Positions 49,537 through 61,297 of a DNA stretch of 64,000 nt are shown in pieces. The translations under genes and the position numbers were made by a program. The DNA comes from Chloracidobacterium thermophilum B (lineage in GTDB: Bacteria; Acidobacteriota; Blastocatellia; Chloracidobacteriales; Chloracidobacteriaceae): NCBI RefSeq assembly GCF_000226295.1, contig NC_016024.1, forward strand, positions 1,843,501 through 1,907,500, in the 5' to 3' direction. The notes beneath the pieces are model-generated. The model saw only the letters and a list, made by a program, of their open reading frames with translations, ran no database searches and was not told the origin of the DNA. How positions within the stretch are numbered: position 1 is the first letter of the stretch; every line of letters starts with the position of its first letter.

Positions 49537-50886
49537 CTAAACACTGGGGACAGCCGTGCCCTCAGTCGGCAATGGCTCGGCTGCTTCTGCGTACTCATCC
49601 ACATCGGCAAAAAAGTCCGTCAGATGTTGATATGCCGACCGACGCGCAATCGCCTGGCTGACCAGCTCGGCAATCGTCTGCGCCCCCTGCGCCAAAAAGA
49701 GCGGGCGGGAAGCAAAAATGTTGGTGAAGTACATGCTCGGAATCCCGCGCTCTTTGGCATAGGCAGCCAGCGCCGTCGTCCCCAGTACCAGGTCCGGCTT
49801 GTATTCATCCACGGCAATCACATCCTGGTCGAACGTCTTGCGAAACACGACCGTGGTGCCATGCGCGGCCAGCCACGCCTCGTCTTCTTTTGTAAATGGC
49901 GTCTGCCCGATGTTGGTTGACACATAAGGCACCTCCGCACCGGCTTCTATGAGCAGGCGCGCCACCATAAGTTCACTGCCCTCGTACCCCGCGACAATGA
50001 TGCGTCCCCGCACCGGCGTGCGGGCAAAGACCTCCGCGACGGCCCGGGACTCCGTCTCGGCCAGAGTCTCAATAAGACTGGGACGGACGTTGAACGCCTT
50101 GCCAATGCGCTCAATCCAGGTGCGGGTGCCTTCGACGCCAACCGGCGTGCAGCCCATGGAGGGAATCTTGTACTTCGCCAGCAACGCACAGGTCTTCGTG
50201 TAAAACGGATGCAGCGTGACGTTGACCCCGACGCCAAGCACTTTGCGGAAATCCCCAATCGTCCGCGATGGGATGTGGGCCACGAGCCGAATGTCCATCT
50301 TTGCCAGCAACTGTTCCAGATACAGCGGATCGGCCGGGAAGACCTCCCCAATGGTCGAGGCCGTATCTGTCTGACGCGGCGGCAGACCATCCCGTTCCAC
50401 CAGACACTTCAGAAGCTGGGACGCGGCAATGTCCTTGGCCTCGGCATGGGATTTGACGCCATAGCCCGGCACGTGCATGGGCACGACCAGCGGAAAGGTC
50501 GGGTCATCTTTGGCGCGGGCGGCATAGTCTTTGGCAATGGCATCAATGGCCAACCCGACCGTTTCTTCATTGCACAGGGTAATCAGCGCAATGACGCGGG
50601 GATTGAACTGGGCAATCGTTTCGGCCACGGCCGCCCGCGTCCGGTCTTCAATCCGGCCGTTGGTCAGGTCAGCCGCCGTATAGACCGGCGTCAGGACCGA
50701 CTTCCGCGCCGCATAAAAGTGCGACACAAAATCCAGACCATACACACAGCCGGCATTGCCAACCAGAATCGGAACAATGCCCTCGACGCGCATCATGACG
50801 CGCAGGCTGCCAAAAGCCTGACACATCGAAAGAGGGGCGTGTTTGGAACTACAGGCGTTGATACGTTGCAAAACGTTGAGTTGCAT
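49537..50886 (-). CDS. bchY: Chlorophyllide reductase subunit BchY
   Basis: A 449-residue subunit of chlorophyllide a reductase (BchXYZ), the nitrogenase-like enzyme that reduces ring B on the way to bacteriochlorophyll. Family marks are MCQAFGSLRVMMRVEGIVPI and GNAGCVYGLDFVSHFYAARK, which include cluster-ligand Cys. NVTLHPFYTKTCALLAKYK and IPSMGCTPVGVEGTRTW follow, and the end is the usual RPLFLAQGAQTIAELVSQAI. The frame is open to 50946, but I prefer the ATG at 50886 because upstream sequence forms a hairpin and lacks homology. bchX and bchZ are not adjacent, unlike in purple bacteria. Its presence shows that the organism makes bacteriochlorophyll. Confidence 0.9.
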   Translation of the reverse strand: MQLNVLQRINACSSKHAPLSMCQAFGSLRVMMRVEGIVPILVGNAGCVYGLDFVSHFYAARKSVLTPVYTAADLTNGRIEDRTRAAVAETIAQFNPRVIALITLCNEETVGLAIDAIAKDYAARAKDDPTFPLVVPMHVPGYGVKSHAEAKDIAASQLLKCLVERDGLPPRQTDTASTIGEVFPADPLYLEQLLAKMDIRLVAHIPSRTIGDFRKVLGVGVNVTLHPFYTKTCALLAKYKIPSMGCTPVGVEGTRTWIERIGKAFNVRPSLIETLAETESRAVAEVFARTPVRGRIIVAGYEGSELMVARLLIEAGAEVPYVSTNIGQTPFTKEDEAWLAAHGTTVVFRKTFDQDVIAVDEYKPDLVLGTTALAAYAKERGIPSMYFTNIFASRPLFLAQGAQTIAELVSQAIARRSAYQHLTDFFADVDEYAEAAEPLPTEGTAVPSV

Positions 50887-50916
50887 CCGCTTCACAGGCG
50901 GGGACGGATGGATCAC

Positions 50917-50937
50917 GGGCCGCGTCTGTCGCGGCCC
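50917..50937. promoter_or_regulatory. Perfect hairpin in the bchY leader
   Basis: GGGCCGCG and CGCGGCCC pair perfectly with a five-base loop, about 30 bases upstream of the preferred bchY start. It could be the terminator of an upstream transcript or part of a leader control element. Confidence 0.45.
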
Positions 50938-50995
50938 TGCTTCCAACCTACAGTGTCCTCCCCGCCAAACGAAGGGTGACTTTCCACCTTTTGCC

Positions 50996-52126: not shown

Positions 52127-55111
52127 TTACATGAAGGCGAAATCGAAACGTTCCTGGTGAATGTTCGGGTCACTGTGCAGGGTGACAGGGACCCCGAAGC
52201 TGAATTCGATTTCCCGCAGCACCCGTGATTCAGCGCCCCGCAGCAGGTCGGCAACCGCCGGACTCACCCGCAACGTCACCTCGCTGAACACCTGGCTCGA
52301 AGCGGCCTTTTCCTTGGCGAGATGCTTGGCGTCCGACAGAATTTCGTAGCACATCGTCTGCGCCGACTTGATCATGCCGCTGCCGCCACAGTAGTGACAC
52401 GGCTCACTCAGCATCCGTTCGAGGCTCTGGCGGACCCGCTTGCGTGTAATGGCCACCAGCCCGAAATCATTGAAGGACGTAATCTTGGAAGGCGACCGGT
52501 CAGCCTTCATCGCCTGCTCCAGTACCTGCATGACCTTCTGGCGGTTCCGGCGGTCTTCCATGTCAATGAAGTCCAGAACGATGATCCCGCCCAAGTCACG
52601 CAACCGGATTTGGCGGACGATTTCTGCCGCGGCTTCCAGATTGGTCCGGGTGATCGTGTCCTCCAGACGGTTCGACTTGCCGACGAATTTGCCCGTGTTC
52701 ACATCAATGGCCACGAGCGCCTCCGTCTGATTGATGACGATGAAACCACCCGACTTGAGCCAGACCCGTGGTTTGAGGGCGGCTTCGATTTCAGGCTGGA
52801 TGTTGTATTCCTCGAAAATCGGCCGATTCCGCGTGTAGAGCCGCACCCGGTCCACGAGTTTGGGCTGGAAGCGGTTGATGAAATCCACGATGTTGGTGTA
52901 TTCGCCCGGATCATCCACCCGAATAACCGAAAAGTCACTCGACATGTGATCGCGCAGCAAACGCTGGACAAGGTCCAGTTCACGGCAGAGCACCGTTCCC
53001 GCCCGGGCCTGCTCGGCCCGGCGCCGGATGTCGCGCCACGTGCGGGCCAGGTAGAGCATGTCATCGCACAGGTCCTGCTCCGAACGGCCCTCGCAGGCGG
53101 TCCGCACAATGAACCCGCCTGTGACGCCTTCCCGCTCCCGCAACATGGTCATCGTGCGCTTGAGCCGCGCCCGTTCCTGTTCGGTTGAAATCTTACGTGA
53201 AACCCCGATGTGGTTGATAGTTGGCAGATACACGAGGTAACGCCCCGGAAGGGACACATACGAAGTAATCCGGGCGCCTTTGAGGCCAATTGGCTCCTTG
53301 GCAATCTGGACGATGATTTCCTGCCCTTCGCGCAGCAACTCCGTAATGGCCGGCTGCCGACGTGGCAGGTCAGGGTCGCGACGGTCTTCCCGCGCCGGAC
53401 GTGCTGCCGGACGCGCCTCCCGTCCAGCGCGGAGATCAGGACGGGACTCAACAGCATTCTGGGCTTCGATGAGGGAAAGCGACTCCGCACTCACCGGAAT
53501 CTCCCGCACCACCACAGCCGGCTCCCCTGGCGTACCACCGGTGTTGCCGTTTTCAGGCAGCCGGTCGGGATCGGGCCGGTGTGATTCAGCTTCCGGTGTG
53601 GCGCTCGGCTCGGCAGTTTCTTCCGGGGTATCACTCCGGTCATCCGACTCAGCGGATTCATCCCCTGGGGTGACGGCCGTGCGTGCACCGCTGCGCCGCC
53701 GGCCCCGGCGACCACGCCGTGGCGGGAATTCGGCCTGCGACGGACGTACCTGAAGCTGGGCCGTATCACCCTGTGCCTTTTCTTCGCCGTCTCCGGCCCT
53801 GCCTGTTTCCATTTCCTCTTGAGGGCTGGCTTCGCCAATATCCGCTGCTCCGGTTTGCACCGGCATCGCTTCCGCCGGCGTAGCTTCAGTGGTCACAGCA
53901 TCTGATGTGGCGGATGGCTCAGGAACAGACGTTGTTTCAACCGGCACAGCCAGAAGTGCCGCATCGCCTGTGGCAGACTCGGTCTCTTCCGTGAACGGTT
54001 CAGCGCCGGTGGTTAATGGCTCATCGTCATCGGCAATCCGCTCATAGCCCAAGGTCAGCGGTTCAATGGTTGGCGCATCACTGGTCGCGGCTTCAACCGG
54101 CTCCGGTGCCGGTTCTTCAGAGGTGGTGGTCAGCTCTTCAATACGGGTTTGGGCGATGATCTTTTGCTGGATGATGGCATCCTTGAGCAGGTCGCCGGCT
54201 TCTTCTTCGTAATCATCATCGCGCACGCGCTCAAACTGAACTTCCACCGCCGGCGGCCCTGCTGCCGAAGTCTCGGCGGTGATCAATTCTGCAACTTCGT
54301 CTTCGACTTTCCGACTGCGGCGACGTGAGCTTTTTTTCTTTTCCTCACCGATGACCTCCTTGCGCCGGCCGCGCCGTCGTTCACGGGGCGCACCCGGTTC
54401 GATGGCTTCCGCCAGCGCCTCCCGCTCGATTTCGAGACGGTCTTCCCCGCTGGCAGCTTCCTCTGCAACCACCCTCTGCCCTGACTCGCCACGGACAGAT
54501 GAAGCTTCCTGACTTGTTATCGTGTCATCATCACTGACCCGTTCAAACTGCGCCCCGGCAGCCGACCCCAAAAGTGAAGACAGCAGGGGCGTCTCCACCC
54601 TGACATCATCCACCGGGCTTTCTCCAGCCGCACCTGCTTCACCGGGAGCTTCCGAGACAGGCGGCACAGCCACCGCTTCTTCCGTGGGCTCCAGATCAAC
54701 AGCCGTTGCCTCACGAATCCCTGTCACGGCCGGCGGTTCTGTCACTTCAGAACGGTGGTCGCGTCCGCTGCGCCGCCCGTTCGTCTCCCGCCGTGCTGGT
54801 TCGGGTTGACGTTCCGGGCGTTCGCTTCGTTCAGCAGGCAACCGGGGAAGGGGTTCCGTTGTGTCGAGGTCTTCTTCGGTTTCCTCGAAAAAGTCCCCGA
54901 CGTAGAGAAAGGCATCCCGCTCCAGCCCGATGTCCACAAAGGCCGACTGCATTCCGGGGAGAACCTTGCGTACCCTGCCCTTGTAGATGTTGCCCACGAC
55001 GGCTTTGGATTCATCGGCCCGCTCGATGTAGAATTCGACGACGACACCATTTTCCAGAATCGCAACCCGCTTTTCATAAGCGTTCACGCTGATGATCATT
55101 TCCTTGTTCAT
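52127..55111 (-). CDS. rng: RNase E/G family ribonuclease with a very long insert in its S1 domain
   Basis: A 994-residue RNase E/G-family endoribonuclease. The N-terminal start (ISVNAYEKRVAILENGVVVE) and the first half of the S1 domain (NIYKGRVRKVLPGMQSAFVD) are normal. At about residue 76 a Glu/Ala/Thr/Arg/Pro-rich, low-complexity stretch of about 510 residues begins, and the S1 domain resumes at ITELLREGQEIIVQIAKEPI. The DNase I-like catalytic part has its metal Asp residues in ALVAIDVNTGKFVGKSN and GGIIVLDFIDMEDRRNR, and the Zn-link is CHYCGG. The C-terminal half is short, as in RNase G. It processes rRNA and mRNA. The insert contains several RRGRRGRRRSG-type basic patches that could bind RNA. 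Confidence 0.92.
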   Translation of the reverse strand: MNKEMIISVNAYEKRVAILENGVVVEFYIERADESKAVVGNIYKGRVRKVLPGMQSAFVDIGLERDAFLYVGDFFEETEEDLDTTEPLPRLPAERSERPERQPEPARRETNGRRSGRDHRSEVTEPPAVTGIREATAVDLEPTEEAVAVPPVSEAPGEAGAAGESPVDDVRVETPLLSSLLGSAAGAQFERVSDDDTITSQEASSVRGESGQRVVAEEAASGEDRLEIEREALAEAIEPGAPRERRRGRRKEVIGEEKKKSSRRRSRKVEDEVAELITAETSAAGPPAVEVQFERVRDDDYEEEAGDLLKDAIIQQKIIAQTRIEELTTTSEEPAPEPVEAATSDAPTIEPLTLGYERIADDDEPLTTGAEPFTEETESATGDAALLAVPVETTSVPEPSATSDAVTTEATPAEAMPVQTGAADIGEASPQEEMETGRAGDGEEKAQGDTAQLQVRPSQAEFPPRRGRRGRRRSGARTAVTPGDESAESDDRSDTPEETAEPSATPEAESHRPDPDRLPENGNTGGTPGEPAVVVREIPVSAESLSLIEAQNAVESRPDLRAGREARPAARPAREDRRDPDLPRRQPAITELLREGQEIIVQIAKEPIGLKGARITSYVSLPGRYLVYLPTINHIGVSRKISTEQERARLKRTMTMLREREGVTGGFIVRTACEGRSEQDLCDDMLYLARTWRDIRRRAEQARAGTVLCRELDLVQRLLRDHMSSDFSVIRVDDPGEYTNIVDFINRFQPKLVDRVRLYTRNRPIFEEYNIQPEIEAALKPRVWLKSGGFIVINQTEALVAIDVNTGKFVGKSNRLEDTITRTNLEAAAEIVRQIRLRDLGGIIVLDFIDMEDRRNRQKVMQVLEQAMKADRSPSKITSFNDFGLVAITRKRVRQSLERMLSEPCHYCGGSGMIKSAQTMCYEILSDAKHLAKEKAASSQVFSEVTLRVSPAVADLLRGAESRVLREIEFSFGVPVTLHSDPNIHQERFDFAFM

Positions 55112-55518
55112 ATTTGGAGCTATTCCTCGATATGTTTCTGCTGTGGCTGGTCAGACACGCAACCAAGGTCGGTGTCATCCTTGACCGTTGGCGCATCATT
55201 CTTTTCGCAGCAGCGCCAGCGTGTGTCAGGCCGACCCGCCGGCACACGGCCGGGTCAATGCCGGTGCGCCCCGGAAAGCCACAGGTATGTTTGCGGATAG
55301 CGACGAGAACCAGTCAGCGAACAGGGCAAGGAAAGCACGCATCCAGAAGCGCTGGCAGCCAAAACCCGTCATTGTGCCTGGCATCACCAGTCTGGCATCG
55401 CCGGTGAAACATCCCAGGCTCACGATAGCCACACCCGGCAACTCTCACCGCTGAAACTCCACCGGCAGCGGGTCAAGCTTTTTTCTTCATCAACCTCGAC
55501 CGGGGGGGGGAGGATGTC
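55112..55518. other. Intergenic region between rodA and the RNase E/G gene
   Basis: About 407 bases on the minus strand. A hairpin-capable sequence (GACCCGCCGGCACACGGCCGGGTC at roughly 55233-55256, written in two arms GACCCG and CGGGTC) and a nine-G tract (55502-55510) lie here. It probably holds the RNase leader; RNase E genes are often self-regulated through such leaders. No gene was found. Confidence 0.5.
55502..55510. repeat. G9 homopolymer downstream of rodA
   Basis: Nine consecutive G on the plus strand (C9 in transcript sense), beginning eight bases beyond the rodA stop. It resembles the G10 tract at 21071-21080. Confidence 0.8.
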
Positions 55519-56664
55519 CTAATTCGAGAAGCGCCTTCCGTACACGTTCGCCACCAAACCCAAACTCACGAACGTCATCAACAATGACGAGCCGCCTGCA
55601 CTCAACAACGGCAACGGTATCCCAATGATGGGAACAAGCCCCACGACCATGCCGAAGTTGACAATGACATGAAACGCCAGAAGCGTCATGTAGCCCGCCA
55701 GGACGAGCATTGAAAATCGTTCTCGTGAACGTCCCGCAACGTTGGCAGAGTGTAGTATGACGAAAAGAAGCAGCGCAAGAACACCCAGAGACCCCACCAG
55801 TCCAAACTCCTCGGCAATCACCGAGGCAATGAAATCCGAGTGATGGGCCGGAACAAAGCCGCCCTGGCTCTGGGTGCCGCCCCGAAATCCGCGCCCCAGA
55901 ATCCCCCCTGACCCAACGGCAATCATGGATTGCAGGGTTTGATAGCCAAACCCCTCGCGCGTCTGCCGGTCCTGAAGGCGTTCGGGATGAAAAATGGCGT
56001 TCCAGGTGACATTGATTCGGTCCCGCTGGTACTGCTTGAGCCGGGGTTCAACCAGAAACACAAAGAGCAGCGGGCCAAGGATGAGACTGGCAACGGCCGA
56101 CCCCACCACCCACCGCACCGAAATACCACTCAAAAAGACCATGACGAGCACTGGCGGGAAGAAGGTCAGGGCCGTACCGGTGTCTGGCTGCTGGAGCGTC
56201 AGACCGACCGGAATCAGCGTCACGACCGCGACCAGCGCCAACTGCGGCCACGTCACTCCCTGGAGACTGATGGGGCGTAGAATCCGCGCCACGAGCAGGA
56301 TGGTGCCCAGTTTGGCAAACTCCGAAGGCTGAAGCGTTCCTAACGGCCCGAGCCGAATCCAGCACCGCTGACCATTGATTTTCACCCCGACAATGAGGAC
56401 GGCAATGAGCAACAGAACTGTGACGGCATAGATGTATGGCGCGGCATCGAAGACCCGCTGAAAGTTCAGGCGTGTCACCCAGAAAAAGACGACATAACCA
56501 ATGCCGCACCACAGCATCTGCTTGAACCAGAACTTCTGATGCCACTCCGTCGCCTCGCCCGGCGCGGCATCAATGCTGTAGAGCGCCACCAGGCTGACCC
56601 CACACAACAGGGTCAGCGCCACGAGCAGGGGCCAATCAAAATCGCGCCAGGGACGTTCCGGCAT
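55519..56664 (-). CDS. rodA: Rod shape-determining protein RodA
   Basis: A 381-residue SEDS-family peptidoglycan polymerase with about ten transmembrane helices. Typical segments are FWVTRLNFQRVFDAAPY, GQRCWIRLGPLGTLQPSEFA, SGILGRGFRGGTQSQGGFVP, HHSDFIASVIAEEFGLVGS and the final GIPLPLLSAGGSSLLMTFVS. All are diagnostic of RodA/FtsW; pairing with mrdA makes RodA the choice. I placed the start at the ATG at 56664; the frame upstream is open to a TTG at 56691. RodA works with PBP2 and the MreBCD proteins in cell elongation. Confidence 0.94.
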   Translation of the reverse strand: MPERPWRDFDWPLLVALTLLCGVSLVALYSIDAAPGEATEWHQKFWFKQMLWCGIGYVVFFWVTRLNFQRVFDAAPYIYAVTVLLLIAVLIVGVKINGQRCWIRLGPLGTLQPSEFAKLGTILLVARILRPISLQGVTWPQLALVAVVTLIPVGLTLQQPDTGTALTFFPPVLVMVFLSGISVRWVVGSAVASLILGPLLFVFLVEPRLKQYQRDRINVTWNAIFHPERLQDRQTREGFGYQTLQSMIAVGSGGILGRGFRGGTQSQGGFVPAHHSDFIASVIAEEFGLVGSLGVLALLLFVILHSANVAGRSRERFSMLVLAGYMTLLAFHVIVNFGMVVGLVPIIGIPLPLLSAGGSSLLMTFVSLGLVANVYGRRFSN

Positions 56665-56694
56665 GTGCCCGCACCTGCTTTCTTGGGACAACCC

Positions 56695-58620
56695 TCAACG
56701 CGCCGTCGTCTGGGGCTGTGTCCTCAGACGTGCCGCCGGACGGACAGCTCCCGCAGCGTCGGCTGACCCGATCTGCACCGGGAGTCCCTTTTTCTTCCTC
56801 AACCAGGCTTCAAACACCGCCCGTACATTGGGCGCGGAAACCTTGGCTCCAAAACCGCCGTGCTCGACGAGCGAAATGGCGGCGATTTCCGGTTTATCCC
56901 GTGGGCCGAAACCGACGAACCACGAGTGATCGCGCTCTTCGAGCTTGGAGGCTTTGAGTTTGCTGACCACCTGGGCCGTCCCCGTCTTGCCACACATCTC
57001 AAAACCGGTTTCCGGGTCACGCAGCGCCGAACCGGAGGCTGTCCCACCGGCATTGACCGCCCCCCACATCCCTTCTATCACGGCCTCCCAGTAGTCATCC
57101 GGGAGTTCAATCCGCTTGACCTGATCCTTGAAGGTCACACCAGGGCGTTCCTGCGTGGGACGCGCTTCAAGCAGAAAGTGCGGCGTATGAAACTCTCCCC
57201 GCATGGCAATGCCGGCGACCGACCGCAGCATCTGCAGGGGCGTCGGGCGTACCATAGCCTGCCCAATGGAAGCATAAACAGAATCCGCATCGGTCCAGCG
57301 GTACTGGGCCGGGGTGGCATTCGGCATCGTGCGCCGCACAGTGGCCGCCTTGAGTTCGAGACTCGGAATGTAGCCCTTGAACTCATTGGGCAGATCAATA
57401 CCGGTGTACTCTCCGGCGCCCAACTCCGAAGCGTAGGTGCGGAGATTGTCCAGACCGAGCTTGATACCCAGCCGGTAAAACCAGCCATCACAGGACTTGG
57501 CAATGGCCGTGGGCAGCGGTGGCATTCCGTGACTGCCCATGCACCGGACATGGCGGCCGCCAACGTTGATCCCTCCACCACACAGCAGGCGGTCCGTCGG
57601 CTTGAGCACGCCAGCCCGCATGGCGGCCACAGCCATGATGATTTTCCAGGTCGAACCCGGCGGATAAATGTCCTGGATGGCGCGGTTGCGCAGTGGCTTA
57701 TGCTTGTCGTTGGCATACCGCGCATAGTCGGCCCGTGAAATACCGGCAGCAAACAGGTTGGGGTCATAGCCCGGCATTGAAGCCAGCGCCAGCATTTCCC
57801 CATTGCGCGGGTCCATGACGGCAATGGTTCCATCCAGTTTCAGCGCCTTGAGCCGCTCTTCCGCCACCCGCTGCAAGTCCAGATCGAGCGTGGTCACAAT
57901 GTCCTGACCGGCAACGGGAGGTACCGTCTCGATTTCACGCACGAAGCGCCCACGCCGATCAACAATAATGCGCCGATACCCATCCCGCCCCATGAGAATA
58001 CGGTTGTAGAACCGCTCCAACCCGGACTGCCCGACCTTGTCCCCCGGACGACAGTAGTCAAATTCCGGCCGCTTGAGCTGGGCTTCACTGACCTCGGCTA
58101 CGTAACCCAGAACGTGGCAGGCCAACTCCCCGTGGGGGTACTTCCGCTGAGGACGCAGTTCGACGAGAAACTCCGGGTGTTCATAATCCAGCACAGCAAC
58201 TTTGGCCCGGTCGGCATCGGTGATGTTGGATTTGACTTCAACCGGACGAATTCTCGCCGCTGGCGAGCGGAGTTGCTGCCGGGCATACTCTGGTGCCACC
58301 CCGAACTCCTCCGCCAGAATACGCAGCGTTTCAGCTTCATCCTGAATGTCTTCCCGGTTCACCATCAGGCTGAACGTCGGCCGGCTGTCCACCAGGACAT
58401 TTCCGTGGCGGTCAAGGATGTTGCCGCGCGGTGCCACGATGGGAATCTTGCGCTCGCGGTTGTTTTCGGCCTGTTTGACATAGTCCTCGTGGTGAACGAC
58501 CTGCATGCTCCACAGGCGCAGGGCCAGAACAACAAAAGCCGCCACAATGCCGGCCTGAAGCGCCAGCAACCGGAGCCGTGGATTGAAAGAGGGTGGCGGA
58601 GCTGAAAAGTGCGGCGTCAT
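56695..58620 (-). CDS. mrdA: Penicillin-binding protein 2 (MrdA)
   Basis: A 641-residue class B penicillin-binding protein. One N-terminal transmembrane helix (about residues 20-40) anchors a periplasmic dimerisation domain (GNILDRHGNVLVDSRPTFSL) and a transpeptidase domain. The catalytic triad of motifs is YPPGSTWKIIMA (SxxK), AKSCDGWFYRLG (SxD, as in MrdA) and CGKTGTAQV (KTG). It cross-links peptidoglycan during elongation with RodA. It lies between mreD and rodA with short gaps, so the five genes mreB to rodA look like one operon. Confidence 0.95.
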   Translation of the reverse strand: MTPHFSAPPPSFNPRLRLLALQAGIVAAFVVLALRLWSMQVVHHEDYVKQAENNRERKIPIVAPRGNILDRHGNVLVDSRPTFSLMVNREDIQDEAETLRILAEEFGVAPEYARQQLRSPAARIRPVEVKSNITDADRAKVAVLDYEHPEFLVELRPQRKYPHGELACHVLGYVAEVSEAQLKRPEFDYCRPGDKVGQSGLERFYNRILMGRDGYRRIIVDRRGRFVREIETVPPVAGQDIVTTLDLDLQRVAEERLKALKLDGTIAVMDPRNGEMLALASMPGYDPNLFAAGISRADYARYANDKHKPLRNRAIQDIYPPGSTWKIIMAVAAMRAGVLKPTDRLLCGGGINVGGRHVRCMGSHGMPPLPTAIAKSCDGWFYRLGIKLGLDNLRTYASELGAGEYTGIDLPNEFKGYIPSLELKAATVRRTMPNATPAQYRWTDADSVYASIGQAMVRPTPLQMLRSVAGIAMRGEFHTPHFLLEARPTQERPGVTFKDQVKRIELPDDYWEAVIEGMWGAVNAGGTASGSALRDPETGFEMCGKTGTAQVVSKLKASKLEERDHSWFVGFGPRDKPEIAAISLVEHGGFGAKVSAPNVRAVFEAWLRKKKGLPVQIGSADAAGAVRPAARLRTQPQTTAR

Positions 58621-58678
58621 GGGGGAGGGACATCAGGAAAACATCCGCAGCGCCGGGTCCCAGGTGCAGAAGGTATGG

Positions 58679-59290
58679 TCAAAAGGCGCGCGGCGCCAGC
58701 GGTTCATCCGTGCTACGGACGGCAATCCACTTACCCAACCAGCGATCACCCAGGGGAAACAGGGCTATCCCCGCCAGACCATTCCCCAGTAGGGCGAACA
58801 TCCCCACCCGGACGACATCCCGCAACGTCGTTCCGGGCGGCAACATCGAAAAAAAGTACAGGAAAAAGGCAAATAATCCCGTGTTGACGACGGAACACAG
58901 CGGCAGCACCAGCAAGCGTGTCGCTTTGCTGTCCAGCGAAAACTTGACACTGACCACGGCCAGCGCGTAGCCGATGAGCATCTTGGTAAAGCCGCTGGCA
59001 CCATAGAGTACCCCCCACACCAGGTCCTGCAACAGGCCACCGGTCATCCCGACCAGGGCGGCGCGCAGGGCACGCGGCTGCACACCAACGAAGACGGTCA
59101 AAATGAGGATGAAATCCACATACTCGAAGAACGGGCCAAGATAGGGCAGGCGGACCAGCATGGTTTGCAGCGCCACCATAAGCAACAGCGCAATGACGAC
59201 ACGCGCCGTCGGCCCAAGCTCCAGCACGATGAAGGTGGTACTAGCGCGGCGCTGGGGAAGTGACTGGCGCATGACGTAGGGGGATAACAT
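58679..59290 (-). CDS. mreD: Rod shape-determining protein MreD
   Basis: A 203-residue integral membrane protein with about five helices (VVIALLLMVALQTMLVRLPY; FEYVDFILILTVFVGVQPRA; AALVGMTGGLLQDLVWG and two more). It sits in the usual mreD position and has the typical length and the GGLLQDL segment. MreD links MreC to the elongation machinery. The ATG at 59290 is used; a second ATG six codons inside is possible. Confidence 0.88.
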   Translation of the reverse strand: MLSPYVMRQSLPQRRASTTFIVLELGPTARVVIALLLMVALQTMLVRLPYLGPFFEYVDFILILTVFVGVQPRALRAALVGMTGGLLQDLVWGVLYGASGFTKMLIGYALAVVSVKFSLDSKATRLLVLPLCSVVNTGLFAFFLYFFSMLPPGTTLRDVVRVGMFALLGNGLAGIALFPLGDRWLGKWIAVRSTDEPLAPRAF

Positions 59291-59322
59291 GGTGTGCTGA
59301 CTGACTTCTCAGGAACAATGAT

Positions 59323-60228
59323 TCATTTACTTTTGGATGGCTGCTTGGCTGTGGGCGAGGGGCGCAGGAGGTCTGAAACCGTTACCCGAATGGTCGGAGG
59401 GAGAATGGCCACTTCTTCCAGGCGCTCCAGAGGAGCCGCCGGGCGCACCTGGATGCGGTGGAGTCCGGCACCGGAGCCACGTTCGACCGTCTCCACAGTA
59501 CCGATGATAAGTCCCTTCGGATACACACCGTCGAGACCGCTTGTGAGTACCATCTCGCCTTCGCTGACATCTGTCAGGCCGGAGACATTATCCAACCGGC
59601 ACAGCGGCTGATTCTGCCCGCGCAGTTCGCCATTCACCCGTGATACGGCCAGGGTCGCACCCAGTCCGGCCTGCCCGTCGGCAATGGTCTGTACCACGGC
59701 CACGTTTGGGCCGACGGCCACCACCCGCCCGACCAGCCCCTGGGGCGTGACGACCGGTGCATTGATGAGCACCCCATCCAGCGAGCCTTTGTCGAGCAGG
59801 ATTTGCCGGAACCACGGAGTGCCGTCGCCACCAATGACATTGGCCACAACCGTCGGCGCCGGCGCAGACTGCTTCAGGGCCAGCAGTTCGCGCAACCGCT
59901 GCCCGTCCAACGCCTCGCGCTCGCGCTCCACCAGCAGCCGCCGCAGGCGATCATTTTCGGCCTGCAAACGCTGGTTGGCGGCATAGACCCCGCGTAGGTC
60001 CACATATCCCTTCCAGGCGGATACCACCGTTGTGATCACGGCATCAGACGCCTTCTGGAGCGGCTGGAGTACCGTCAGAAGCGCCACCCGCGGCAGGCTT
60101 TGTCCGAGGGTACGGGCACGGGCATGGAGGGACATCAGCAGAAACTGCGCCAGAAGCAAACCGGCCACGAGCAAGGCAACCCGGCGCGCCGGGTCGAGCT
60201 TCTGCAATGGAGAGGGCAAGTGCAACAT
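59323..60228 (-). CDS. mreC: Rod shape-determining protein MreC
   Basis: A 301-residue bitopic protein. One N-terminal transmembrane helix (about residues 14-33) is followed by a coiled coil (ANQRLQAENDRLRRLLVERE) and two beta-barrel domains (VVANVIGGDGTPWFRQILLD; GLVGRVVAVGPNVAVVQTI; GEMVLTSGLDGVYPKGLIIG). This is the MreC pattern. I chose the ATG at 60228. The frame upstream (to a TTG at 60252) overlaps the mreB stop. MreC connects MreB to the PBP2-RodA synthase. Confidence 0.92.
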   Translation of the reverse strand: MLHLPSPLQKLDPARRVALLVAGLLLAQFLLMSLHARARTLGQSLPRVALLTVLQPLQKASDAVITTVVSAWKGYVDLRGVYAANQRLQAENDRLRRLLVEREREALDGQRLRELLALKQSAPAPTVVANVIGGDGTPWFRQILLDKGSLDGVLINAPVVTPQGLVGRVVAVGPNVAVVQTIADGQAGLGATLAVSRVNGELRGQNQPLCRLDNVSGLTDVSEGEMVLTSGLDGVYPKGLIIGTVETVERGSGAGLHRIQVRPAAPLERLEEVAILPPTIRVTVSDLLRPSPTAKQPSKSK

Positions 60229-60241
60229 CCGGCCCCCAGGC

Positions 60242-61297
60242 TCAGTTGGCAATCATGTGCTTGGCGTAAGCGCCTCCCAGACTCACCCGTTTGAGCAGCT
60301 CAAAGTCACCCAACATCTTGCCGGTGCCAAGCACAACGGACGACAGCGGGTTTTCAGCCAGGGTCACAGGAACGCGCGTTTCCTTCATCAGAAGTTTGTC
60401 AAGGCCCTTGAGCAACGCTCCACCACCGGTCAGGACAATCCCCCGGTCGGCAATATCGGCTGAGAGTTCCGGTGGCGTTCGTTCCAGCGCCACCCGCACC
60501 GCGTTGACGATGGTAGCAATCGGCTCCGCCATGGCCTCACGCACTTCCTCGTCAGAAATCGTGATCGTTTTGGGAATCCCCTCGATAAGGTCACGTCCGC
60601 GAATCTCCATCGTGAGACGCTCTTCCAAACGGTACGCCGACCCCAACTCGATTTTGACCTGCTCGGCCGTCCGTTCGCCGATGAGCAGGTTGTACTTGCG
60701 CTTGATGAACTGGGCGATGGCTTCGTCGAGTTCGTTGCCTGCCACCCGCACGGCACGGGAATACACAATGCCGGAAAGCGAAATCACGGCAATGTCGGTT
60801 GTACCGCCGCCGATGTCCACAATCATGTTGCCGTATGGTTCGGTGATGGGCAGCCCTGCGCCAATGGCCGCGGCCATGGCTTCCTCGACCAGATACACCT
60901 CCGCTGCCCGCGCCCGGTAAGCAGCATCTTCAACCGCCCGCAGTTCAACTTGGGTAATCTCACCCGGCACGCCGATGACCACCCGTGGCGACACCCACGA
61001 CTTCCCGTTGTGCGCACGCCGGATGAAGTGCTGGAGCATTTTCTCGGTCACTTCAAAATCGGCGATAACGCCATCTTTCATCGGGCGAATCGCCACGATG
61101 TTCCCCGGCGTCCGCCCAATCATTTCCTTGGCTTCCTTACCAACGGCCTCAACCTGGTGGGTGATCTTGTTGATGGCGACAATGGATGGCTCACTGACAA
61201 CAACCCCACGGCCTTTGGCATACACCAGCGTGTTGGCCGTTCCCAGGTCAATCGCCAGGTCATTGGAAAAGTAGTTGAAGATAGAACGCAGTTTCAT
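60242..61297 (-). CDS. mreB: Rod shape-determining actin-like protein MreB
   Basis: A 351-residue bacterial actin. The phosphate-1 loop is AIDLGTANTLVYAKGRG, then the SIVAINK strand, VIGVPGEITQVELRAVEDAA, EVYLVEEAMAAAIGAGLPI, the phosphate-2 loop VDIGGGTTDIAVISLSG, and VLTGGGALLKGLDKLL near the end. It forms membrane-bound filaments that direct cell-wall synthesis. It is the first gene of mreB-C-D-mrdA-rodA. The intergenic region upstream has a TTGACA-like box. Confidence 0.97.
   Translation of the reverse strand: MKLRSIFNYFSNDLAIDLGTANTLVYAKGRGVVVSEPSIVAINKITHQVEAVGKEAKEMIGRTPGNIVAIRPMKDGVIADFEVTEKMLQHFIRRAHNGKSWVSPRVVIGVPGEITQVELRAVEDAAYRARAAEVYLVEEAMAAAIGAGLPITEPYGNMIVDIGGGTTDIAVISLSGIVYSRAVRVAGNELDEAIAQFIKRKYNLLIGERTAEQVKIELGSAYRLEERLTMEIRGRDLIEGIPKTITISDEEVREAMAEPIATIVNAVRVALERTPPELSADIADRGIVLTGGGALLKGLDKLLMKETRVPVTLAENPLSSVVLGTGKMLGDFELLKRVSLGGAYAKHMIAN

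Follow-up and report, generated by a model that had tools for sequence, protein, structure and literature searches.

Gene and domain organization of the RNase E/G protein

We analysed a 64,000-nt stretch of the Chloracidobacterium thermophilum B genome (NC_016024.1, positions 1,843,501 to 1,907,500; referred to as the window), and in particular the RNase E/G gene located on its minus strand at 52127..55111. No other RNase E/G match was found in the genome (3.70 Mb, two contigs), and the gene encodes a 994-amino acid (aa) protein, the window protein, in which an S1-domain insert of about 500 residues was confirmed. Three segments make up the protein, all encoded on the minus strand. Residues 1-73 (54893..55111) cover the N-terminal part and the first half of S1, residues 74-582 (53366..54892) form the mostly disordered-looking insert, and residues 583-994 (52130..53365) contain the second half of S1 and, after it, the 5' sensor, the catalytic domain, and the C-terminal domain. 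The first two were delimited by alignment to the structures 2bx2 and 4oxp, and the third by domain models and structure alignment; disorder of the insert was judged from its composition and low predicted local distance difference test (pLDDT) values only. The nearest relatives include L038, a named Chloracidobacterium metagenome-assembled genome (MAG).

Pfam identified RNase_E_G (residues 620-893) and RNase_E_G_Thio (residues 904-990), the catalytic domain PF10150 being matched with an E-value of 6.8e-100, and none of the Pfam and NCBIfam models recognised anything in the middle of the protein. TIGR00757 scored 472.7 bits, above its cut-off of 325.95. PRK11712, an equivalog model for ribonuclease G, scored 481.9 bits against a cut-off of 594, and three RNase E models with cut-offs of 900-1400 scored only 257-306 bits. 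Because the ribonuclease G model aligned through its final position (489/489) and ended at residue 994, there is no tail beyond the fold. The C-terminal scaffold, which a first-pass annotation made from the sequence alone had described as missing, is indeed absent, as judged from the ends of both the Pfam and ribonuclease G models.

Residues 21-93 and 161-285 of Caulobacter RNase E (4oxp) correspond to residues 1-73 and 582-708 of the window protein in the structure alignment, and residues 10-80 and 94-438 of E. coli RNase E (2bx2) correspond to residues 4-74 and 586-932. As the loop flanks are fixed by both alignments, the unaligned S1 stretch measures 508-511 aa in the window protein versus 67 aa in Caulobacter and 13 aa in E. 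coli. The interruption had earlier been placed at 53350-54885 (residues 76-588), consistent with these alignments. Its reported richness in Glu, Ala, Thr, and Pro was also borne out (15.7, 13.3, 8.0, and 9.8%, respectively, of 502 residues, with Arg at 11.0%); Trp and Cys do not occur, and Phe and Tyr together account for only six residues.

Several short elements, all encoded on the minus strand, are recognizable within the insert. Three copies of an acidic motif are present: FERVSDDD (residues 189-196; 54524..54547), FERVRDDD (residues 293-300; 54212..54235), and YERIADDD (residues 356-363; 54023..54046). The second copy forms the first half of a microdomain of about 38 residues and closely precedes the helix GDLLKDAIIQQKI; the second half of the microdomain is the predicted helix GDLLKDAIIQQKIIAQTRIEE (residues 306-326; 54134..54196). 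A basic stretch, RERRRGRRKEVIGEEKKKSSRRRSRK, which is kept within the genus, is located mid-insert (residues 243-268; 54308..54385). The arginine patch RRGRRGRRR noted in the first-pass annotation lies at residues 465-473 (53693..53719), within a class-wide [FML]xxRR element, so that the insert contains two basic regions.

Insert length and distribution in Acidobacteriota

The phylum search covered 297 genomes and used as query only the part of the protein after the insert, and the sample of phylum genomes is therefore not biased by the insert; 256 genomes matched and 41 gave no match. The same query matched 10/10 genomes in a family search, and when the full protein was used to search a public genome collection, 80 named loci were kept, which gave 70 usable proteins. 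We read about 111 of the 256 matching genomes, selecting them among the better-scoring ones and leaving out more distant genomes, including families with two RNase E/G copies. Once cut genes and duplicates had been removed, 180 distinct proteins were retained, a few of which end at contig edges. Genes cut by locus ends were re-fetched whole (L002-L004, L009, L011, and L034-L036) or dropped (L040, L043, L062, L074, L094, and L105); L098 and L212 (anchor missing), L113 (a run of N), and L099, L102, and L195 (signature-bearing open frame absent) were also dropped. The RNase E match of L149 (genome G111) contains one internal TAG stop.

The spacing of the S1 anchors is 142-886 aa in 144 of the 180 proteins and 38-104 aa in the other 36. 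The short loop that had been considered normal for the family is thus found in the latter group but does not hold for most of the acidobacterial members examined. In a FastTree tree built from the flanks without the insert, short and long inserts separate across one branch (local support 99), the tree being unrooted and containing long branches. On the long side are the window's class, with 41 proteins and inserts of 265-564 aa (median 427 aa); a clade in which Bryobacterales, Solibacter, or Terriglobia MAGs account for most of the named members, with 77 proteins and inserts of 299-886 aa (median 436 aa); and a mid group of 26 proteins, whose inserts are mostly 142-254 aa (325 and 315 aa in L142 and L145, respectively). 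Because the E. coli loop is short, a single growth of the insert is the simpler reading. All 180 proteins end 375-402 aa beyond the second S1 anchor, indicating that none of them possesses a C-terminal scaffold.

Conserved motifs in the inserts of the window's class

The conserved elements of the inserts in the window's class are FER[VI]xDD (FERV; one to three copies), a helix with the pattern GxxxKDAxxQ (KDA helix), and the arginine patch (R patch). In a count of all spaced four-letter patterns, compared with one shuffle, arginine patterns were found in 39/41 inserts, FER..D in 35/41, and KDA..Q in 30/41; the leading patterns of both groups (the window's class and the long inserts outside it) occurred in 0 to 4 inserts of the single-shuffle control. 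Fixed patterns were then compared with 200 shuffles; these patterns were set after the sequences had been seen, and the shuffles therefore show the strength of the signal and do not constitute a blind test. The relaxed FERV pattern was present in 40/41 inserts (81 copies; shuffled mean 0.49), the strict FERV pattern in 35/41 (64 copies; 0.05), the KDA helix in 34/41 (0.26), and the R patch in 41/41 (1.26). Counted by genus code, FERV occurs in 20/21 genera. Among the 81 relaxed hits, in which Arg and Asp are invariant by pattern definition, Phe was found in 62, Glu in 74, and a preceding Gly in 37.

A further 24 genomes of the class were held out, and RNase E was located in 23 of them. Thirteen of these proteins were found via a microdomain profile that contains FERV and are thus not blind for this motif, and 10 were found via the catalytic part among the 11 other genomes; one of the thirteen, L245, is apparently the same contig as L039. 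In the 20 cases where both ends of the insert could be measured, it is always long, at 263-544 aa. The R patch was present in 23/23, and relaxed FERV in 17/22 readable inserts. Among those found via the catalytic part, relaxed FERV was seen in 4/9 readable inserts, and the five lacking it (L255, L257, L258, L260, and L262) all belong to one family, f8; the class-wide claim is for this reason weaker than 40/41 suggests. FERV is typical of the window's class and is worn down in f8.

Motifs outside the window's class

Neither FERV nor the KDA helix was found in any of the 139 inserts outside the window's class. The four-letter count instead identified LPG....K in 77/79 long inserts. The strict LPGES pattern was present in 74/79 (shuffled mean 0.00), or in 74/77 once two mid-group members were set aside, and the remaining three of the 77 carry the variants LPGEFIAKY, LPGESLAKH, and LPGEKLRKY. 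LPGES was found in none of the inserts of the window's class. The Bryobacterales/Terriglobia relatives, a sister clade whose inserts lie at the same site and are just as long, thus have a different and equally conserved motif, LPGESxxKY. The R patch was detected in 76/79 long, 3/24 mid, and 0/36 short inserts outside the class, and in the 36 short-loop RNase E/G proteins FERV, the helix, LPGES, and the R patch were each found in 0/36 by the patterns used. Bryobacterales/Terriglobia inserts (e.g. L151 and L044) also contain P[ED]SK[FY] (56/77) and [RK]Yx[HQ]R (32/77), and both adjoin arginine stretches in the consensus of A1.

Specificity of the motifs within genomes

The degenerate pattern [FY]ER[VI]xD[DE], searched at the DNA level, has three sites in the 3.7-Mb genome, all of which lie in the insert, and the reversed-pattern control yielded zero sites. 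A profile of the FERV and helix microdomain, built from ten sequences, gave one strong match (E < 1e-8) in each of 43/58 class genomes; 30 of these matches are located at RNase E genes by coordinates, and the other 13 were found to lie in RNase E on reading, two of them (L242 and L251) being truncated at contig ends. Elsewhere, no match was better than E = 0.0199, which was in a 51-aa frame. Among eight genomes that we chose for a scan with LPGESxxKY, the motif occurs once per genome in 7/7 f15 genomes, where its coordinates fall at the RNase E gene. It is absent from the short-insert genome G115. The conserved motifs are therefore confined to RNase E in the genomes scanned.

Evolutionary constraint and structure prediction

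Evolutionary rates were compared among seven genomes of the genus. The frame is intact in all seven and the ratio of nonsynonymous to synonymous rates (omega) is 0.237 in the insert, which is real coding sequence, versus 0.025 in the folded part; these omega values are relative only because synonymous divergence (dS) is near saturation, and we relied on the nonsynonymous proportion (pN). Gapped columns numbered 175/589 in the insert and 1/493 elsewhere. For the final rate test, motifs were defined by class-wide patterns only (51 columns), and RERRRGRRKEVIGEEKKKSSRRRSRK, which had been picked by eye within the genus, was excluded. The filler had a pN of 0.333, compared with 0.060 for the motifs and 0.031 for the folded part, and 0/5000 random placements of equal blocks gave a value as low as that of the motifs.

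AlphaFold was run on the window protein with a 38-row alignment containing four class members. Ten-residue blocks of the insert (residues 81-580) had mean pLDDT values of 31-45, except for values of 63, 79, and 64 at residues 301-330. The helix predicted at residues 301-328 coincides with the conserved helix, and the rest of the insert is unstructured in the model. In the model of L044, a member of the LPGES clade, the block at LPGES (from residue 184) had a pLDDT of 54, with neighbours at 46 and 44, a difference too weak for use. Foldseek recovered RNase E, the large chains having template modelling scores (TM-scores) of 0.10-0.13 by query length.

Gene neighbourhood and other RNA decay enzymes

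The genome also encodes PNPase, an RNase J-type protein, and several DEAD-family proteins, and the genome search gave no match for RNase Y. Upstream of the RNase E/G gene and on the same strand is a cell-shape cluster that ends in this gene (cluster genes at window 55112-61297). It comprises, on the minus strand, genes for MreB (60242-61297), MreC (59323-60252), a 203-aa frame without assignment at the expected place of MreD, between MreC and the transpeptidase, a PBP2-type transpeptidase (56695-58620), and RodA (55519-56691). mreBCD adjoins rng in E. coli too. In the 407-base gap between the RodA and RNase E/G genes (55112-55518), no Rfam family was found at E-values up to 1 (scan 55000-55600). 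Since E. coli rne is autoregulated via its own leader, this gap is a possible candidate for a leader of the RNase E/G gene. A run of nine G residues lies within it at 55502-55510.

Immediately downstream of the RNase E/G gene is a gene for a deoxyhypusine synthase family protein (PF01916; 51030-52058), here in a bacterium, which scored under the cut-off of all seven NCBIfam models listed. Also nearby is a gene for a protein similar to chlorophyllide reductase subunit Y (BchY-like; 49537-50946), with a score of 394.9 bits, just below the cut-off of 425.15.

Interpretation of the insert

The motif sets, their confinement to RNase E, and their low pN amid rapidly changing filler suggest that the insert is a degradosome-type recruiting arm that grew from the S1 loop and not from the C-terminus, a reading to which we assign a probability of about 0.6, the binding of partners being putative. 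The first-pass annotation had proposed an alternative degradosome platform, and this part of it gains support from short motifs that are kept while the filler changes. RNase E is tetrameric, as established for E. coli, and each tetramer would therefore bear four arms, leaving the enzyme beside the RNA-binding and 5'-sensor surface. The FERV and helix elements may bind one or more partner proteins, for which PNPase and a DEAD-box helicase, both gene kinds being present in the genome, would be the first candidates. Multiple copies of the motif could provide avidity, the arginine patch may hold RNA near the S1 surface, and the filler would set only the reach of the arm.

Several observations weigh against a recruiting arm of this kind. 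The six f8 members read (L013, L255, L257, L258, L260, and L262) retain a remnant of FERV without the aromatic residue, e.g. QRIVDD, or QRIMDD in L013. No strong match to the microdomain profile was obtained in 15/58 class genomes, which belong to f8 (6), f5 (3), f3 (2), and f2, f6, f7, and f81 (1 each). By pattern, the helix is absent from g5, g10, g13, g17, and g20, all genera in the first set, of which g17 was matched by the profile; the helix is less general than FERV in the window's class. The known PNPase motifs NDPR, GWW, and five or more Arg followed by SSA were found in 0/180 inserts, and a likeness to the latter, RR[RG]S[SG]A, is limited to the window protein and one sister. The dS values among the seven genus genomes are 1.2-1.6, and the AlphaFold models of the window protein and L044 are poor (predicted template modelling scores of 0.35 and 0.36, respectively), with the S1 fold lacking confidence in both.

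Family f8 would provide a natural test of whether the putative partner has changed or been lost there too. Separately, the cyanobacterial PNPase nonapeptide RRRRRRSSA was considered as a shared motif and rejected; the window patch RRGRRGRRRSGA looks similar to it, but the RR[RG]S[SG]A ending occurs in only 2/180 inserts.

The main rival is a cis-acting gate, in which the acidic FERVxDD motif would bind the S1/5'-sensor channel of its own enzyme, mimic RNA, and control access without recruiting partners. According to excerpts of PMC4245959, the S1 insert of Caulobacter RNase E extends into the predicted RNA site, and its Asp and Glu residues could mimic RNA; the motifs of the window protein are likewise acidic, emerge from the same S1 loop, and occur at no other site in the genome. 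Despite 41-49% protein identity, the sister-clade motif LPGESxxKY is chemically different, and confident docking of a motif on the core is seen in neither AlphaFold model; both points are weak. We regard the gate as unlikely.

Even less probable, in our judgement, is that bulk properties (charges, arginine patches, and sparse aromatic stickers) drive the formation of foci resembling bacterial ribonucleoprotein bodies (BR-bodies) without specific partners. The composition agrees with such a condensate, aromatics are sparse, and three of the six Phe/Tyr residues of the window insert lie in FERV motifs, which would be compatible with an arm of stickers and spacers. Excerpts of PMC11964227 describe foci in Pseudomonas as well as Arg motifs that bind RNA. 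Class-wide, however, FERV motifs hold only 69/349 aromatics, and exact residues are fixed (Phe in 62/81, Glu in 74/81, and the prior Gly in 37/81 hits) while the filler is free, which bulk composition would not bring about.

Two further explanations are very improbable. The first-pass annotation had associated an unconstrained spacer with free length variation and a lack of conserved motifs: length does drift (492-564 aa among the seven genus genomes; 265-564 aa among the 41 class members) and the filler evolves fast, as expected of a functionless stretch lengthened by slippage, yet the motifs are conserved class-wide, have a low pN that 0/5000 random placements matched, and are specific to RNase E, so that the spacer reading is contradicted for the motifs and may hold for the filler. 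The second is a membrane tether, in which the conserved helix would anchor the enzyme as an amphipathic helix does in E. coli. The gene adjoins a rod-shape/cell-wall cluster, but the conserved helix has a hydrophobic moment of only 0.16-0.18 and a net charge of -1 to -2 (three sequences), and a membrane helix was rejected on account of the low moment.

Returning to the recruiting arm, a wider proposal, to which we would give somewhat less than even odds, is that much of Acidobacteriota builds its degradosome on a giant S1 arm by the RNA channel, and that this arm originated independently of the C-terminal scaffold of proteobacteria. It would have arisen once, and its docking code would later have been swapped wholesale (FER[VI]xDD and the helix in the window's class versus LPGESxxKY and P[ED]SK[FY] in Bryobacterales/Terriglobia), neither set being like the degradosome motifs compared.

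Comparison with known RNase E systems

Inserts of about 50-150 aa in the S1 domain are known in alpha-proteobacterial and plant RNase E homologues, where they are charged, predicted to be disordered, partly helical, and diverse in sequence (PMC4245959, in excerpts). The insert of Caulobacter RNase E (4oxp) and that of the window protein lie at the same point of S1 in the alignment, and both are charged, disordered by prediction, and partly helical. They differ in length (508 aa in the window protein and up to 886 aa in its relatives) and in the repeated motifs and Arg patch of the window insert; furthermore, Caulobacter RNase E has a C-terminal scaffold, which the window protein lacks. RhlB of Caulobacter is reported in the same excerpts to bind a catalytic-domain fragment that contains the S1 insert.

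According to excerpts of PMC11964227, the tail of Pseudomonas RNase E carries short linear motifs to which PNPase, RhlB, and RNA bind, one repeat being present in varying copy number; modes of PNPase recognition differ between lineages, according to excerpts of PMC12489471. The window arm resembles the C-terminal scaffolds of E. coli and Pseudomonas described in these two sources in looking disordered and in carrying short linear motifs, Arg-rich elements, and repeats of variable number, but it is placed inside S1, and its motifs are unlike NDPR, GWW, and RRRRRRSSA. The short-loop acidobacterial RNase E/G proteins (38-104 aa; 36/180) have the same catalytic core.

An insert of this kind was not reported in the titles and opening lines of abstracts of the open literature on RNase E, degradosomes, Acidobacteria, and S1 inserts. 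A 2011 review lists the RNase E/G of Fibrobacteres/Acidobacteria as a 511-aa protein with no predicted degradosome-like potential (PMC3071783). Should the arm recruit partners, the means to form a degradosome would, contrary to this listing, be present in many lineages of Acidobacteriota. FERVxDDD and VLPGESLAKYR are short, defined baits, so that the binding question is directly testable, and the position of the arm beside the RNA-binding surface bears on whether helpers hand RNA straight to the active site. An S1 insert and a motif-bearing arm are each of a known kind; new to us are the size and motif sets of the acidobacterial insert, its spread across a large part of the phylum, and the lack of a C-terminal scaffold, and a recruiting arm would, if partner binding holds, have evolved at two places of one enzyme.

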